From NCBI RefSeq assembly GCF_900111645.1, contig NZ_FOHQ01000002.1, forward strand, positions 62,001 to 126,000: a stretch of 64,000 nucleotides of DNA, written 5' to 3'. The notes beneath the pieces were generated by a model. That model saw only the letters and a program-made list of their open reading frames with translations. It was not told where the DNA came from and did no database searches. This document shows, in pieces, positions 38,835 to 43,415 of the stretch; position 1 is the first letter of the stretch; every line of letters starts with the position of its first letter. This stretch comes from Methanococcoides vulcani. Lineage in GTDB: Archaea > Halobacteriota > Methanosarcinia > Methanosarcinales > Methanosarcinaceae. The position numbers were made by a program, and so were the translations under genes.

Positions 38835-38936
38835 ATTGATCTTCTCGTAGTATTGCTCTCTTTTACTACTGTTCTTCTTTGTTTGTCAGGTTGTTTATCT
38901 GAAAGGTTTGCTTTGTAAGGGGAAAGTATTTAGCCA

Positions 38937-38968
38937 CTGTAAACCAGTTATGGAGTCATGGTTAACAG
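38937..38968 (+). promoter_or_regulatory. BirA-like biotin operator over the bioY start codon
   Basis: CTGTAAACC (38937-38945), 14 bases, GGTTAACAG (38960-38968). The arms are inverted with one mismatch and agree with the known biotin-repressor box (GTTAACC/GGTTAAC halves about 14-16 bases apart). The bioY ATG (38958-38960) lies within it. A TATA-like GTATTTA at 38926-38932 would start transcription near 38955, so a bound repressor would cover the start site. Confidence 0.65.
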
Positions 38969-39515
38969 CGATACTAATACTTCTATCACTTCGCCCCGTC
39001 CTGCGGCCGATATCAGAAAAATGGTCTATGCGTCTCTATTTGCGGCATTGACTGCCATCGGGGCTTACATCACTATCCCGCTTGGTCCGATCCCGTTCAC
39101 CCTTCAGGTTGTGTTCGTCCTGCTGGCAGGTGCAATGCTTGGAAGCAAATGGGGTGCAATAAGCATGATCGTCTACACCCTGCTCGGAATTGCCGGCCTT
39201 CCGGTATTCTCAGGTGGCGCTTCAGGGATCGGTGTGATCCTGGGTCCTACAGGCGGATATATCATTGGTTTTATCGCAGCAGCATTTATTGTAGGTTTCC
39301 TTTTCGAAAAGAACAGGACGGAAAAGGTTCTGTTCAATGCGATCTATGTTCTCATGGGGTCAGTTGTGATCTATGCTTTCGGTCTGACACATCTGATGCT
39401 CGTAGCAGATATGTCCTTCATGCAGGCGATCACTGTAGGTTTTCTTCCTTTCATTGGTGGCGCTCTTGTAAAAATAGCAGTGGTTGCATATATTGCTACC
39501 AGTTATAAGATATAA
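38958..39515 (+). CDS. bioY: Biotin ECF transporter substrate-binding subunit BioY
   Basis: 185 residues, six predicted membrane spans. The BioY signature GPIPFTLQ and PTGGYIIGF, then the GGAS motif, are visible, and residues 1-20 are a polar leader. BioY binds biotin in the membrane and, with the ECF module encoded just downstream (two ATPases and EcfT), imports it. Biotin is a cofactor of pyruvate carboxylase. The start codon sits inside a BirA-like operator, fitting control by biotin status. Confidence 0.92.
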   Translation: MVNSDTNTSITSPRPAADIRKMVYASLFAALTAIGAYITIPLGPIPFTLQVVFVLLAGAMLGSKWGAISMIVYTLLGIAGLPVFSGGASGIGVILGPTGGYIIGFIAAAFIVGFLFEKNRTEKVLFNAIYVLMGSVVIYAFGLTHLMLVADMSFMQAITVGFLPFIGGALVKIAVVAYIATSYKI

Positions 39516-39536: not shown

Positions 39537-40346
39537 ATGATAAGGTTCGAAGGAGTAAGCTACAGCTATCCGGATGATCGCCAGGTGCTCAACGGGATAG
39601 ACCTCCAGATAGAAAAGGGAACGTTCACTACGATAATAGGTGACAATGGTAGTGGAAAGTCTACCCTTGTCCGTCACATGAACGGGCTTCTTACACCTTC
39701 AGATGGCACTGTTTCAGTATGCGGAATGGGGACGTTCGATCCTGAAAACCTTTGGGAGATCCGCCAGATGGTCGGAATGGTATTCCAGGACCCTCATTCC
39801 CAGGCTGTGGGCGCTACTGTGGAAGAAGATGTTGCTTTTGGTCCGGAGAACCTGGCACTTAAGCGTGAAGAGGTCCGTATCCGTGTATCTGATTCTATCC
39901 TTGATGTAGGTCTTGAAGGATTCGAAGAACACCTGTTGATGAACCTCAGTGGCGGACAGTTGCAAAAGACAGCACTTGCCGGTGTACTGGCCATGAAAGC
40001 TGAATATCTTGTGTTCGATGAGGTCACATCAATGCTGGACCAGGATTCCCGGTCCCAGGTACTGGAAATCGTACTGAAGCTTAACAGGATGGGAAAGACC
40101 ATTGTCTATGTGACCCATCACATGGAAGAGGTTCTTGCATCAGATCGTGTCATTGTGATGGAGGGTGGGTCTGTTGCCATTGATGGGTCTCCGGCGGATG
40201 TCTTCCGTGAACTTTACAATTCCGGACACCGCATCCCTCCGCTCATGGAACTTGTGTTCAGGCTTCAGGATTCCGGAATACTGGATAGGGGTGTGCTGCC
40301 TGTAAATGCCAATTCTCTAATGGAGGGGCTATGTCAATCGATGTGA
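39537..40346 (+). CDS. ECF transporter ATPase 1 (CbiO-like)
   Basis: 269 residues. Walker A GDNGSGKST (35-43), Q-loop VFQDPHSQAVGATVEEDVAFGP, signature NLSGGQ, Walker B LVFDEV and H-loop VTHH. The sequence pattern after the Q-loop is typical of EcfA/CbiO. It forms a heterodimer with the next gene's product under EcfT. 21 bases after bioY, and its end overlaps the next gene by 16 bases. Confidence 0.9.
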   Translation: MIRFEGVSYSYPDDRQVLNGIDLQIEKGTFTTIIGDNGSGKSTLVRHMNGLLTPSDGTVSVCGMGTFDPENLWEIRQMVGMVFQDPHSQAVGATVEEDVAFGPENLALKREEVRIRVSDSILDVGLEGFEEHLLMNLSGGQLQKTALAGVLAMKAEYLVFDEVTSMLDQDSRSQVLEIVLKLNRMGKTIVYVTHHMEEVLASDRVIVMEGGSVAIDGSPADVFRELYNSGHRIPPLMELVFRLQDSGILDRGVLPVNANSLMEGLCQSM

Positions 40347-41155
40347 AGGGCCTGTGCTTTTCTTACGGAAAAGGAAAAAATGAGGTTCAGGTCCTCAAAG
40401 ATATCACATTTTCCATTGATAGTAACGAGTCCGTGGGGATCGTCGGCAAGGTTGGATGCGGTAAAACCACGTTGATAAAGCATCTAAATGGTCTCCTTAT
40501 GCCGGATTCCGGAAATGTTACTGTTGATGGTTTGCCTTCTTCTAAAAAAGAAGTGTGTAAAAAAGTAGGTATTCTCTTCCAGCACCCTTCAAAGCAACTA
40601 TTCTGCAGTACTGTCTTTGAAGATATTGCATATGGTCCGACGAATTTCGGGGTCCGTGGGGATGAACTTGATAGTTGTGTTCATGAAGCGATAAGGGAGG
40701 TCGGTCTTGCTGAGGAAATACTTGAAAGATCACCTTTCACTCTGAGTGGTGGTGAGATGCGCCTTGTCGCTCTTGCAGGTGTCTTATCCTCATTTCCGGA
40801 TTATATTGTTCTGGACGAGCCTACTTCAGGCTTAAGCAGCAGTGGGAAAGCTAATCTATTCAGGATACTGGACTCTCTGAAAAATAATGGTGTCGGAATT
40901 GTACTTGTGTCCCATCAACTGGAAGACGTGCTTGATGTTGTGGACAGGCTGATCTATCTGGACAATGGAAAAATTGCATTTGAAGGAACACCTTCGGAAT
41001 ATCTTGCATCAATGCCTTCGCCGGTCCCACAGGTAACAGAACTGATGAGGGGATTGAAGAGGTCCGGTATTGACGTAAAGGATGATATATTTTCCGTGGA
41101 TCACGCATTTGAGGAGATCTATGCTGCCTGGTCAGAAAAAAAGGGTGTCCTCTGA
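40331..41155 (+). CDS. ECF transporter ATPase 2
   Basis: 274 residues. Walker A GKVGCGKTT (39-47), Q-loop LFQHPSKQLFCSTVFEDIAYGP, signature TLSGGEM, Walker B YIVLDEPTSGLS and H-loop VSHQ. Paralogue of the first ATPase; the two overlap by 16 bases, so they are translated together and form the ATPase pair. Its stop overlaps the ecfT ATG by one base. Confidence 0.9.
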   Translation: MSIDVKGLCFSYGKGKNEVQVLKDITFSIDSNESVGIVGKVGCGKTTLIKHLNGLLMPDSGNVTVDGLPSSKKEVCKKVGILFQHPSKQLFCSTVFEDIAYGPTNFGVRGDELDSCVHEAIREVGLAEEILERSPFTLSGGEMRLVALAGVLSSFPDYIVLDEPTSGLSSSGKANLFRILDSLKNNGVGIVLVSHQLEDVLDVVDRLIYLDNGKIAFEGTPSEYLASMPSPVPQVTELMRGLKRSGIDVKDDIFSVDHAFEEIYAAWSEKKGVL

Positions 41156-41925
41156 TGGCAGAACCACTTTTTTCCTATGTGAGGGGAAACTCTTTTCTTC
41201 ACAACATGGACCCACGGGTGAAGATAATTTCTGTGATGTGTCTGAGCATTCTGATATTCAATATTTCCGTGCTGTCACATCTGCTTGTTCTGGCAGTTCT
41301 TTTTGGGATGCTAACAAACATTGCAGGCGTGAGCATATCCGTAGCTATACGATCCCTTCGTCCAATGGTTATATTCTTTTGTTTCATTTTTCTTATCCAT
41401 CTGTTCTTCACAGATGGAAGTCCGATCTTTTCTCTTCCTTTTTCACCAACATACGAAGGCCTTGAAAAGGGAACAGTTGTCACCGGTCGTTTCGTCCTGT
41501 TGATCCTTTTTGGTTCCTTACTAACTTCCACCACAAGACCGGCTTTGATAACCAGTGGGATCGAGCACTTGCTTCGTCCTCTTCCCTTAGGGAAATTAGG
41601 GACTACGTCCTTTGAAGTAGCGACAATGATGTCATTGGCAATTCATTTTGTTCCACATCTGCTGTGGTATGTGAGGCAGATCAAGGATGCCCAGATGTCC
41701 CGCGGCTTGAAGTACGGGCATCATCCCATATCCGGGATGCTGTCCCTGGCAATTCCTGCTTTAAGAGGGTCCATGCGTATGGCTGATGATGTTGCACTTT
41801 CGATGGAGTCCCGTTGTTATCAGGGAAATTATCGCACGTCACTCTTTGAGATGAAAATGGCAGCATCTGACCGTTTTGTCTGTATCTTCGTAGTTCTTGG
41901 CACAGCGCTAATAATATATGCATGA
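41155..41925 (+). CDS. ecfT: ECF transporter transmembrane subunit EcfT
   Basis: 256 residues with six to seven membrane spans. Coupling-helix motifs of the family are present as DAQMSRGLKYG and ALRGSMRMADDVALSMESRCYQ (the two Ala-Arg-Gly-type motifs that dock on the ATPases). It couples ATP hydrolysis to BioY. One-base overlap with the second ATPase gene makes four genes (bioY to ecfT) a single transcription unit. Confidence 0.92.
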   Translation: MAEPLFSYVRGNSFLHNMDPRVKIISVMCLSILIFNISVLSHLLVLAVLFGMLTNIAGVSISVAIRSLRPMVIFFCFIFLIHLFFTDGSPIFSLPFSPTYEGLEKGTVVTGRFVLLILFGSLLTSTTRPALITSGIEHLLRPLPLGKLGTTSFEVATMMSLAIHFVPHLLWYVRQIKDAQMSRGLKYGHHPISGMLSLAIPALRGSMRMADDVALSMESRCYQGNYRTSLFEMKMAASDRFVCIFVVLGTALIIYA

Positions 41926-41943
41926 GCACATGTTCATGTATTC

Positions 41944-42300
41944 ATGGAAAGTGGCCATATATGTGAGCGGGTAGATAAGGAAGCTATCAGCTCTCTTGCA
42001 TCCAACCTGCCTGAAGAAGATGCAATAGTGAGGATATCCAATATCTTCCATGCACTTCAATCGGGACCGCGCCTGAAGATCATGTATCTTCTTCTGGAAA
42101 AAGAGATGTTCGTATGTGAGCTTGAATTCGCTCTTGGAATGAGCCAGTCAGCGATATCACATAATCTTCGCACCCTTCGCCAGCTTGACCTTGTCAGGAC
42201 CAAAAAGAAGGGCCGTTTTGTTGTCTATTCAGTTGCTGATGAGCACGTGAAAATGCTCCTTGAGCTGTCCCGCAAGCATGTCATGAGGTGTGCATTATGA
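41944..42300 (+). CDS. ArsR/SmtB-family transcriptional regulator
   Basis: 118 residues. Winged helix with recognition helix GMSQSAISHNLRTLRQLDLV and wing KKKGRFVVYSV. A cysteine in FVCELEFAL and one in MRCAL may bind metal or metalloid. The gene overlaps the permease gene by 4 bases (ATGA), so the permease is its probable target and the regulator is likely autoregulated. Follows ecfT after 18 bases. Confidence 0.88.
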   Translation: MESGHICERVDKEAISSLASNLPEEDAIVRISNIFHALQSGPRLKIMYLLLEKEMFVCELEFALGMSQSAISHNLRTLRQLDLVRTKKKGRFVVYSVADEHVKMLLELSRKHVMRCAL

Positions 42301-43415
42301 GCTTTGCTGATTCTGTTGCAGAAGCATTCTCAGGTATACTGGTCGAGTCATGGCATATCTTTGCAGAAGCTGCTCCCTACCTGTTGCTGGGTTTTGGTAT
42401 AGCGGGTCTTTTGCATGTTTTCGTTCCGGATGATAAAGTAATGCAATATCTGGGCAGTTCTGCAGGAAAGTTCAGGTCTGTTCTCAACGCATCCATTTTA
42501 GGGGTGCCTCTGCCACTATGCTCCTGCGGGGTCGTGCCTGCTGCACTATCTCTCAAAAAAAGAGGTGCTACAAAAGGTGCAACCCTGTCATTCCTTATCT
42601 CGACCCCCCAGACCGGGGTGGATTCCATCGCTATAACCTATGCCCTTCTTGATCCTATAATGACCGTCTTCAGGCCGGTGGCAACATTTGCTACTGCTGT
42701 TGTCGCGGGCGTGACCGAGAATATACTGGACTTTTCAAATGAAGGTCCGGGTACGGTGTCGAAAAGAGCAGTACCTTTAACAGTGCTTCCAATGACCTCC
42801 ACTATGCCAGATGCCTGTGGCTGCAGTTCATGTGGTAGCCATGAAATAGAGGGCGAAAACGTTGTGCAGAAAGTGAGGTCTGGCATAAAGTACGCTTACA
42901 TTGAATTACTTGGAGATATTGGTTTCTGGCTTATTGTCGGGGTCGTAATTGCAGGTATTATCTCTTATTTCGTACCAGCGAACATGGTGGGCAGCTATCT
43001 TGGTGGTGGAATTGGATCCATGTTGCTTGCTCTTGTTGTGGGAATACCACTTTACATCTGTGCAACTGCTTCCACTCCACTTGCAGCGGTTCTTATCTTA
43101 AAAGGGATGAGTCCCGGTGCTGCATTCGTATTCCTGCTTGCAGGACCTGCTACTAACGCAGCCACTATCACTATGGTCTTGAAATTCCTTGGTAAAAGGA
43201 CCACTGTAGTTTATCTTGCATCGATAGCACTGTGTGCAGTTATCAGTGGGCTTGTTCTCGATCAGATATACTCAAAGCTCGGTATCGATGCTCTTTCAAT
43301 AGCAGGAAGTGCCAGTGAGATCATGCCGGAAGAAGTGAAGAACGTTTTTGCGGTATTGCTGCTACCTTTGTTAGTATACGGCATGTACTGCAGAAAAGGG
43401 TGTGTTGAGAAGTAA
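42297..43415 (+). CDS. DUF318 (COG0701) permease, metal/metalloid export
   Basis: 372 residues, eight or more membrane spans in two halves. LCSCGVVPAALSLKKRGATK and the second-half GPATNAATITMVLKFLGKRT are the family repeats. A central loop holds CGCSSCGSH and is a likely metal-binding site. ATG 42297 has GAGGTG 6 bases upstream and is preferred to GTG 42288. Partner of the ArsR regulator; family members transport arsenite or copper/zinc and the ion here is not determined. Confidence 0.85.
   Translation: MSFADSVAEAFSGILVESWHIFAEAAPYLLLGFGIAGLLHVFVPDDKVMQYLGSSAGKFRSVLNASILGVPLPLCSCGVVPAALSLKKRGATKGATLSFLISTPQTGVDSIAITYALLDPIMTVFRPVATFATAVVAGVTENILDFSNEGPGTVSKRAVPLTVLPMTSTMPDACGCSSCGSHEIEGENVVQKVRSGIKYAYIELLGDIGFWLIVGVVIAGIISYFVPANMVGSYLGGGIGSMLLALVVGIPLYICATASTPLAAVLILKGMSPGAAFVFLLAGPATNAATITMVLKFLGKRTTVVYLASIALCAVISGLVLDQIYSKLGIDALSIAGSASEIMPEEVKNVFAVLLLPLLVYGMYCRKGCVEK

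Follow-up and report, generated by a model that had tools for sequence, protein, structure and literature searches.

In bacteria, BirA operators switch biotin genes off when biotin is abundant; those closest to the site described here are the operator of the Escherichia coli bio operon and the delta-proteobacterial sites. Archaeal BirA signals were reportedly predicted by Rodionov, Mironov and Gelfand in 2002, who are said to have tied them to the HTH domain and to bioY, and the pyruvate carboxylase genes of Methanosarcina barkeri, as Mukhopadhyay reportedly described in 2001, come with a putative E. coli-type bpl/birA. For the delta-proteobacteria, the published BirA consensus is TTGTAAACC-[N14/15]-GGTTTACAA (PMC545781). 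No experimental work on an archaeal BirA operator was recognised among the matches listed in our literature search, most subscription journals being outside that search. The locus described here offers a well-defined, easily tested case in which an ancient ligase/repressor would act on an archaeal TBP/TFB-type promoter.

Results

An inverted repeat over the bioY start

We analysed a 64-kb stretch of archaeal DNA (hereafter the window, meaning the whole stretch). The predicted BirA operator, to which no strand is assigned, occupies positions 38937-38968 and has the form CTGTAAACC-N14-GGTTAACAG, with the left arm CTGTAAACC at 38937-38945, the spacer at 38946-38959 and the right arm GGTTAACAG at 38960-38968; in full it reads CTGTAAACC-AGTTATGGAGTCAT-GGTTAACAG. 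The arms are complementary at 8 of 9 pairs, the reverse complement of the right arm being CTGTTAACC, and the inverted repeat is real. The bioY ATG (38958-38960) lies inside the operator, so that the start codon straddles their boundary, with its first two bases at the end of the spacer and its G at the beginning of the right arm. The operator is thereby placed at the promoter of a biotin-uptake gene, overlapping the bioY start, with an ECF transporter operon downstream.

When the 64 kb were scanned with the strict delta-proteobacterial consensus TTGTAAACC-N14-GGTTTACAA, allowing up to 3 mismatches, the operator was the sole match, with exactly 3 mismatches over 18 positions at N14. The chance expectation for such a match is 0.01 per window (1 of 100 dinucleotide shuffles contained one). 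The looser pattern HTGTHAACC-N14-GGTTDACAD, with up to 3 mismatches, is expected 1.04 times per window; a single match was observed, with 0 mismatches, to a pattern drawn up post hoc from sites (YTGTWAACC was likewise taken post hoc from the window's own site). Genome-wide, the looser N14 pattern has one exact match, the window operator, and its N13 and N15 versions have none. At N13 there were 5 matches in all versus 3 in the control, one with 1 mismatch and the others with 2; the 1-mismatch site (G000:C13:94249-94279) was rejected as intragenic, the product of the surrounding gene being one that we take to resemble ribosomal protein L5. At N15, two sites with 2 mismatches were found, the same number as in the control.

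The gene that begins within the operator, bioY (38958-39515, + strand; 185 aa, MVNSDTN...), encodes the biotin-specific S component of an ECF transporter (Pfam BioY, E 4.9e-44), and its product matches the BioY crystal-structure sequence 4dve (E 1.9e-15). It is followed on the + strand by genes for ECF transporter ATPase 1 (ecfA, 39537-40346; NCBIfam ECF_ATPase_1, E 3.2e-90, 302 bits, below the 315-bit cut-off), ATPase 2 (ecfA', 40331-41155; NCBIfam ECF_ATPase_2, E 2.1e-82, 276 bits, below the 330-bit cut-off) and the T component of the CbiQ family (ecfT, 41155-41925; Pfam CbiQ, E 1.3e-35). The order after the operator is bioY-ecfA-ecfA'-ecfT, closely spaced and ending at 41925. A preliminary description of this DNA had reported an inverted repeat with 14-base spacing that matches the biotin-repressor box, directly upstream of a biotin transporter operon. 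The first point is borne out by the arms, the N14 spacing and the expectation of 0.01, and the second by the BioY, ECF ATPase and CbiQ profile matches. Just past the operon, at 41944-43415, an ArsR-type regulator gene (41944-42300) overlaps an ArsP-type permease gene; the pair is probably a separate arsenic or metal unit.

Promoter geometry

A TATA-like box, TATTTA, is predicted at 38927-38932 (+ strand), starting 10 bases upstream of the operator and leaving a gap of 4 bases. It directly follows a predicted BRE-like purine-rich element, GGGAAAG (38920-38926, + strand), assigned from the sequence and from the consensus of the window's genus (g1), which at -20..-1 of the operator reads AAg.GTAAagTATTTATcaA. 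TATA-like boxes were called with a TATA matrix and a list of TATA hexamers.

Across the order, the operator overlaps the bioY start codon in some genera and lies as much as several hundred bases before it in others, and the TATA-operator distance is held in most of the order despite this variation. Of 136 bioY upstreams, 102 have a TATA-like hexamer whose first base falls at -12..-7 of the operator; each of the other 6-base bins back to -78 has one in at most 13 of 136. No TATA-like hexamer was found at -12..-6 in genera g5, g6, g18, g19, g20, g23 and g24, of which g19 has a TATA-like box near -24; in g14, it was present there in 2 of 6 sequences.

Since the TATA-like box lies just upstream of the operator, transcription is predicted to start inside the operator, at 38950-38958 (+ strand) as estimated from the distance to the box. 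The archaeal TATA box is in general centred near -26, which would put the bioY start at about 38956. In Methanolobus psychrophilus, 81.6% of primary transcripts have BRE and TATA at a distance of about 19-22 nt from the start site, and leaderless transcripts, with a 5' UTR of <10 nt, make up about 16% (PMC5378194); by the 19-22 nt distance the predicted start would fall at about 38951-38954. The predicted bioY leader is thus 0-8 nt long, that is, leaderless or nearly so.

The operator and the first codons of bioY

In six genera (g1, g3, g9, g11, g12 and g14, with Methanohalophilus in g9 and Methanomethylovorans in g11), all 36 operators carry a start codon at the same base (ATG in 33, GTG in 3), and in all 36 the frame is open into bioY. 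In the other genera, among them g10, which includes Methanolobus, and g13, which includes Methanosarcina, an NTG stands at that base in 15 of 100 operators and an open NTG in 2 of 100; the six fused genera were grouped post hoc, after inspection of the data. Codon 2 is GTT in 36/36 fused sequences, and codon 3 is AAC in 24, TAC in 8, GAC in 4 and CAC in 0. Among the 100 operators of the other genera, the base corresponding to the first position of codon 3 is A in 52, G in 26, T in 22 and C in 0. As this base is never C in the non-fused genera either, residue 3 seems to track the operator rather than the protein.

With the start codon inside the operator, the bioY mRNA is predicted to be leaderless and the right half-site to form the first codons; the TATA-like box of the window lies 26-31 bases before the ATG. 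Shine-Dalgarno (SD)-like tetramers at -15..-4 were found in 0 of 36 sequences of the six fused genera versus 21 of 37 in short-leader genera, where the first ATG past the operator was taken as the start. The window has GGAG at -6..-3, outside the range scanned and probably too close to the start to serve as an SD. Taken together, these features make it reasonably likely that in six genera the operator is fused to a leaderless bioY start, one 32-bp stretch acting as repressor site, initiation region and first codons, so that a constraint on DNA writes the N-terminus of the protein.

Conservation across the order

A bioY match was found in 150 of the 185 genomes of the order. The survey covered 147 upstream regions, that of the window and those of 146 other loci, leaving out the bioY of G024, G028, G049 and G174 (contig ends, partial or weak). 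With HTGTHAACC/GGTTDACAD, a spacing of 13-16 and at most 2 mismatches as the definition, an operator is present in 136 of the 147: 78 with 0, 35 with 1 and 23 with 2 mismatches. Markov shuffles (5 x 147) gave an operator in 2 of 735, the relatedness of genomes and genera being left in. Spacings are N14 in 81, N13 in 31, N15 in 17 and N16 in 7, and in the window's genus all 12 bioY upstreams have the operator.

The exact N14 pattern occurs at 65 sites, spread over 62 of the 185 genomes, against 0 for the backwards control, and 57 of these sites lie upstream of bioY or bioB-bioY: 54 in the examined bioY upstreams, 2 before the left-out bioY of G024 and G028, and 1 before bioB-bioY (G083). The other 8, away from an intact bioY, comprise one before a bioY fragment in G009 and seven in g6, near other genes. 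Eleven of the 147 bioY upstreams have no site at up to 2 mismatches. Two of these genomes, G160 and G083, have the operator before bioB; the upstream of G023 is cut by a contig end, and in G164 bioY is shortened N-terminally. No site was found in seven unexplained upstreams (G042, G058, G059, G068 with 297 bases only, G079, G100 and G101), nor in longer stretches of G042, G079, G100 and G101.

In a wider set, a site with up to 2 mismatches was found in 33 of 33 archaeal and 14 of 45 bacterial bioY loci, a comparison that had no shuffle control, classed loci as archaeal or bacterial by record title and drew many archaeal loci from the genomes of the order-wide survey. For this set the 80 best of 535 named bioY loci were taken, and 78 of these 80 had enough upstream sequence.

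The window's genome has two bioY genes over the cut-off; each of the ten further genomes in its genus has a single match. The second bioY (G000:C14:65369-65794; L153:1361-1927), on contig C14, encodes a protein 56% identical to the window BioY and has an operator, GCGTTAACC-N14-GGTTAACAA, with 2 mismatches, overlapping its own ATG. Genome-wide, the looser N14 pattern at up to 2 mismatches gives 4 matches versus 3 in the control, so the second site is within chance on sequence alone and counts because of its place over a bioY start. No obvious ECF ATPase gene was seen among the neighbouring ORFs listed for the second bioY. One nearby ORF has a weak, below-cut-off match to a phage-integrase N-terminal domain, perhaps the remnant of a mobile element.

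BirA and the supply of biotin

The genome contains a single match to the biotin/lipoate ligase family, BirA. It combines HTH_11 (E 1.2e-16), a ligase domain and BPL_C in one protein. Its HTH matches TIGR00122 with E 6.1e-16 and 59.5 bits, under the 70-bit cut-off, which is exceeded in 0 of the 185 genomes of the order and in 2 of 14 control genomes. The closest solved relatives are BirA-type ligases, with alignment over residues 20-323 of 335; we take these structures to be from Staphylococcus aureus (3v7r) and E. coli (1bia). The birA gene lies downstream of pycB, whose product has a biotinyl domain, and of a pycA-like gene. No operator was found in the pycB-pycA-birA locus (L152) at up to 3 mismatches and spacings of 12-17, so birA is apparently outside the operator's control.

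No bioB over the family cut-off is present in the window's genome (best 78.9 bits versus 225), and the cell is therefore probably reliant on biotin uptake. Among the 185 genomes, 138 have both bioY and a BirA HTH, 12 bioY only, 16 the HTH only and 19 neither, an association with a Fisher p of 4.6e-9 in which kinship is ignored and many genomes are incomplete. Only 1 of the 12 bioY-only genomes (G011) is at least 90% complete.

Loss of bioB and other sites

Across the order, 25 of the 185 genomes have a bioB over the cut-off. In G160 and G083 the order is operator-bioB-bioY, with 1 and 0 operator mismatches, respectively, and in G081 (g5; L053) an internally deleted bioB remnant lies between the operator and bioY. 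These arrangements fit a loss of bioB in which the operator was kept for bioY. We also considered the long leaders of g13 (Methanosarcina) as bioB remnants and rejected this idea, as none matched (tblastn E 0.1) except in the bioB-bearing G160.

G009, a genome in which no match to bioY or to the BirA HTH was found, has an exact operator (L162:2032-2063) with a short fragment resembling bioY (MTQCVNVKPMVYASLFEA) after it. Four of the six g6 genomes have an exact site near a radical-SAM gene (L156:2020-2051, L158:2049-2080, L160:3243-3274 and L161:2015-2046). In L156 and L160 it lies between this gene and a divergently oriented one, whose product may be secreted, and at the g6 radical-SAM sites the TATA-like box is downstream of the site. 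These sites may be an extension of the BirA regulon or belong to another regulator. Two further exact g6 sites, one near a VTC-domain gene (L157:1988-2019, G084) and one before a gene whose product we take to resemble a hydrogenase-maturation protease (L159:305-336, G087), have no obvious biotin link, and G085 and G086 have no exact site. Finally, two operator-like sites, L160:1968-1999 (0 mismatches) and L156:3188-3219 (1 mismatch), are preceded by TATA-like boxes and followed by stretches that resemble each other, lack a long ORF and have no Rfam match; the stretch may encode a small RNA or be what is left of a gene.

Mechanism and alternatives

We consider it highly probable that the bifunctional ligase/repressor BirA uses the inverted repeat as its operator, for a biotin-dependent block of bioY-ecfA-ecfA'-ecfT transcription. 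This reading is supported by the motif, the spacing, the target operon and an HTH-bearing BirA, all of which fit. A BirA lacking the HTH had been named beforehand as a finding that would refute the reading, and the protein is present with an N-terminal HTH_11 joined to ligase and BPL_C domains. The further proposal, of a site lying over both the putative transcription start and the ATG, finds support in the TATA-like box at 38927-38932, whose distance to the operator is preserved across most of the order. From these sequence features, we infer BirA binding and dimerisation, biotin dependence, the start site and leaderless transcription.

With enough biotin in the cell and its acceptor (the PycB biotinyl domain) filled, BirA-biotinyl-AMP would dimerise and bind 38937-38968. 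Because the operator follows the TATA-like box after a gap of 4 bases and takes in the predicted start, bound BirA would block the recruitment of RNA polymerase or initiation, and bioY-ecfA-ecfA'-ecfT would stay silent. When biotin is scarce, BirA would be occupied as a ligase, off the DNA, and the importer would be expressed. Steric block of initiation by BirA-biotinyl-AMP is the most likely mechanism, and the predicted operator very probably works as a simple on/off transcription block.

The site might instead serve another regulator, such as the ArsR-type protein encoded at 41944-42300, since an ArsR-family HTH gene follows ecfT, or a TetR/GntR protein of the BioQ/BioR kind. BioQ and BioR boxes, however, differ in sequence, and the ArsP-type permease gene that overlaps the ArsR gene is a likelier partner for it. 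Moreover, bioY co-occurs with the BirA HTH across the order, the same site recurs before the bioY of other genera and before the genome's second bioY, on another contig, and the arms and the 13-16 spacing fit the BirA consensus (PMC545781), all of which makes another regulator quite unlikely. A hairpin controlling bioY translation is conceivable in that the 32-mer as RNA can form a stem (-7.5 kcal/mol). With the predicted start inside the repeat, however, the left arm would be untranscribed, and elsewhere the repeat lies hundreds of bases before bioY with its distance to the TATA-like box unchanged. The genome's two bioY loci (L002, L153) have no Rfam match, nor was any Rfam family matched in the 6 loci scanned, and we regard the hairpin as very unlikely.

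Two objections concern the site itself and the gene start. Because the loose pattern at 3 mismatches is expected about once per 64 kb, a chance palindrome in AT-rich intergenic DNA could be suspected, but a site with 0 mismatches to that pattern, recurring in 12/12 upstreams of the genus and 136/147 overall, is exceedingly improbable as an accident. Alternatively, bioY could begin at an internal Met (residue 22, RKMVYAS), the place of which is kept in the N-termini compared, leaving the operator wholly upstream of the coding region. Set against this are the NTG and open frame kept in 36/36 sequences of the six genera versus 2/100 elsewhere, and the BioY proteins of other genera (for example, L164), which also extend N-terminally before the residue-22 place; we judge an internal start unlikely.

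Discussion

The archaeal BirA signal is of a known kind, and the additions made here are its promoter geometry, its fusion to a start codon and the history of bioB loss. The geometry suggests a block of initiation at a fixed spacing from the TATA-like box. The fusion illustrates well how a DNA site for regulation can prescribe the first residues of a protein, and the third addition connects the disappearance of biotin synthase with reliance on a regulated importer.

As reportedly in Methanosarcina barkeri, birA stands beside pyruvate carboxylase genes and encodes a bifunctional ligase. With bacterial BirA operators, the archaeal operator shares the arm sequence, the spacing, the biotin-gene targets and a bifunctional BirA (PMC545781). 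Sites near a start also occur in bacteria, that of D. vulgaris bioB being given at position 6 (PMC545781). The archaeal operator differs from the bacterial ones in abutting a BRE/TATA-type promoter and, in the six fused genera, in taking in the start codon of the gene that it would control.
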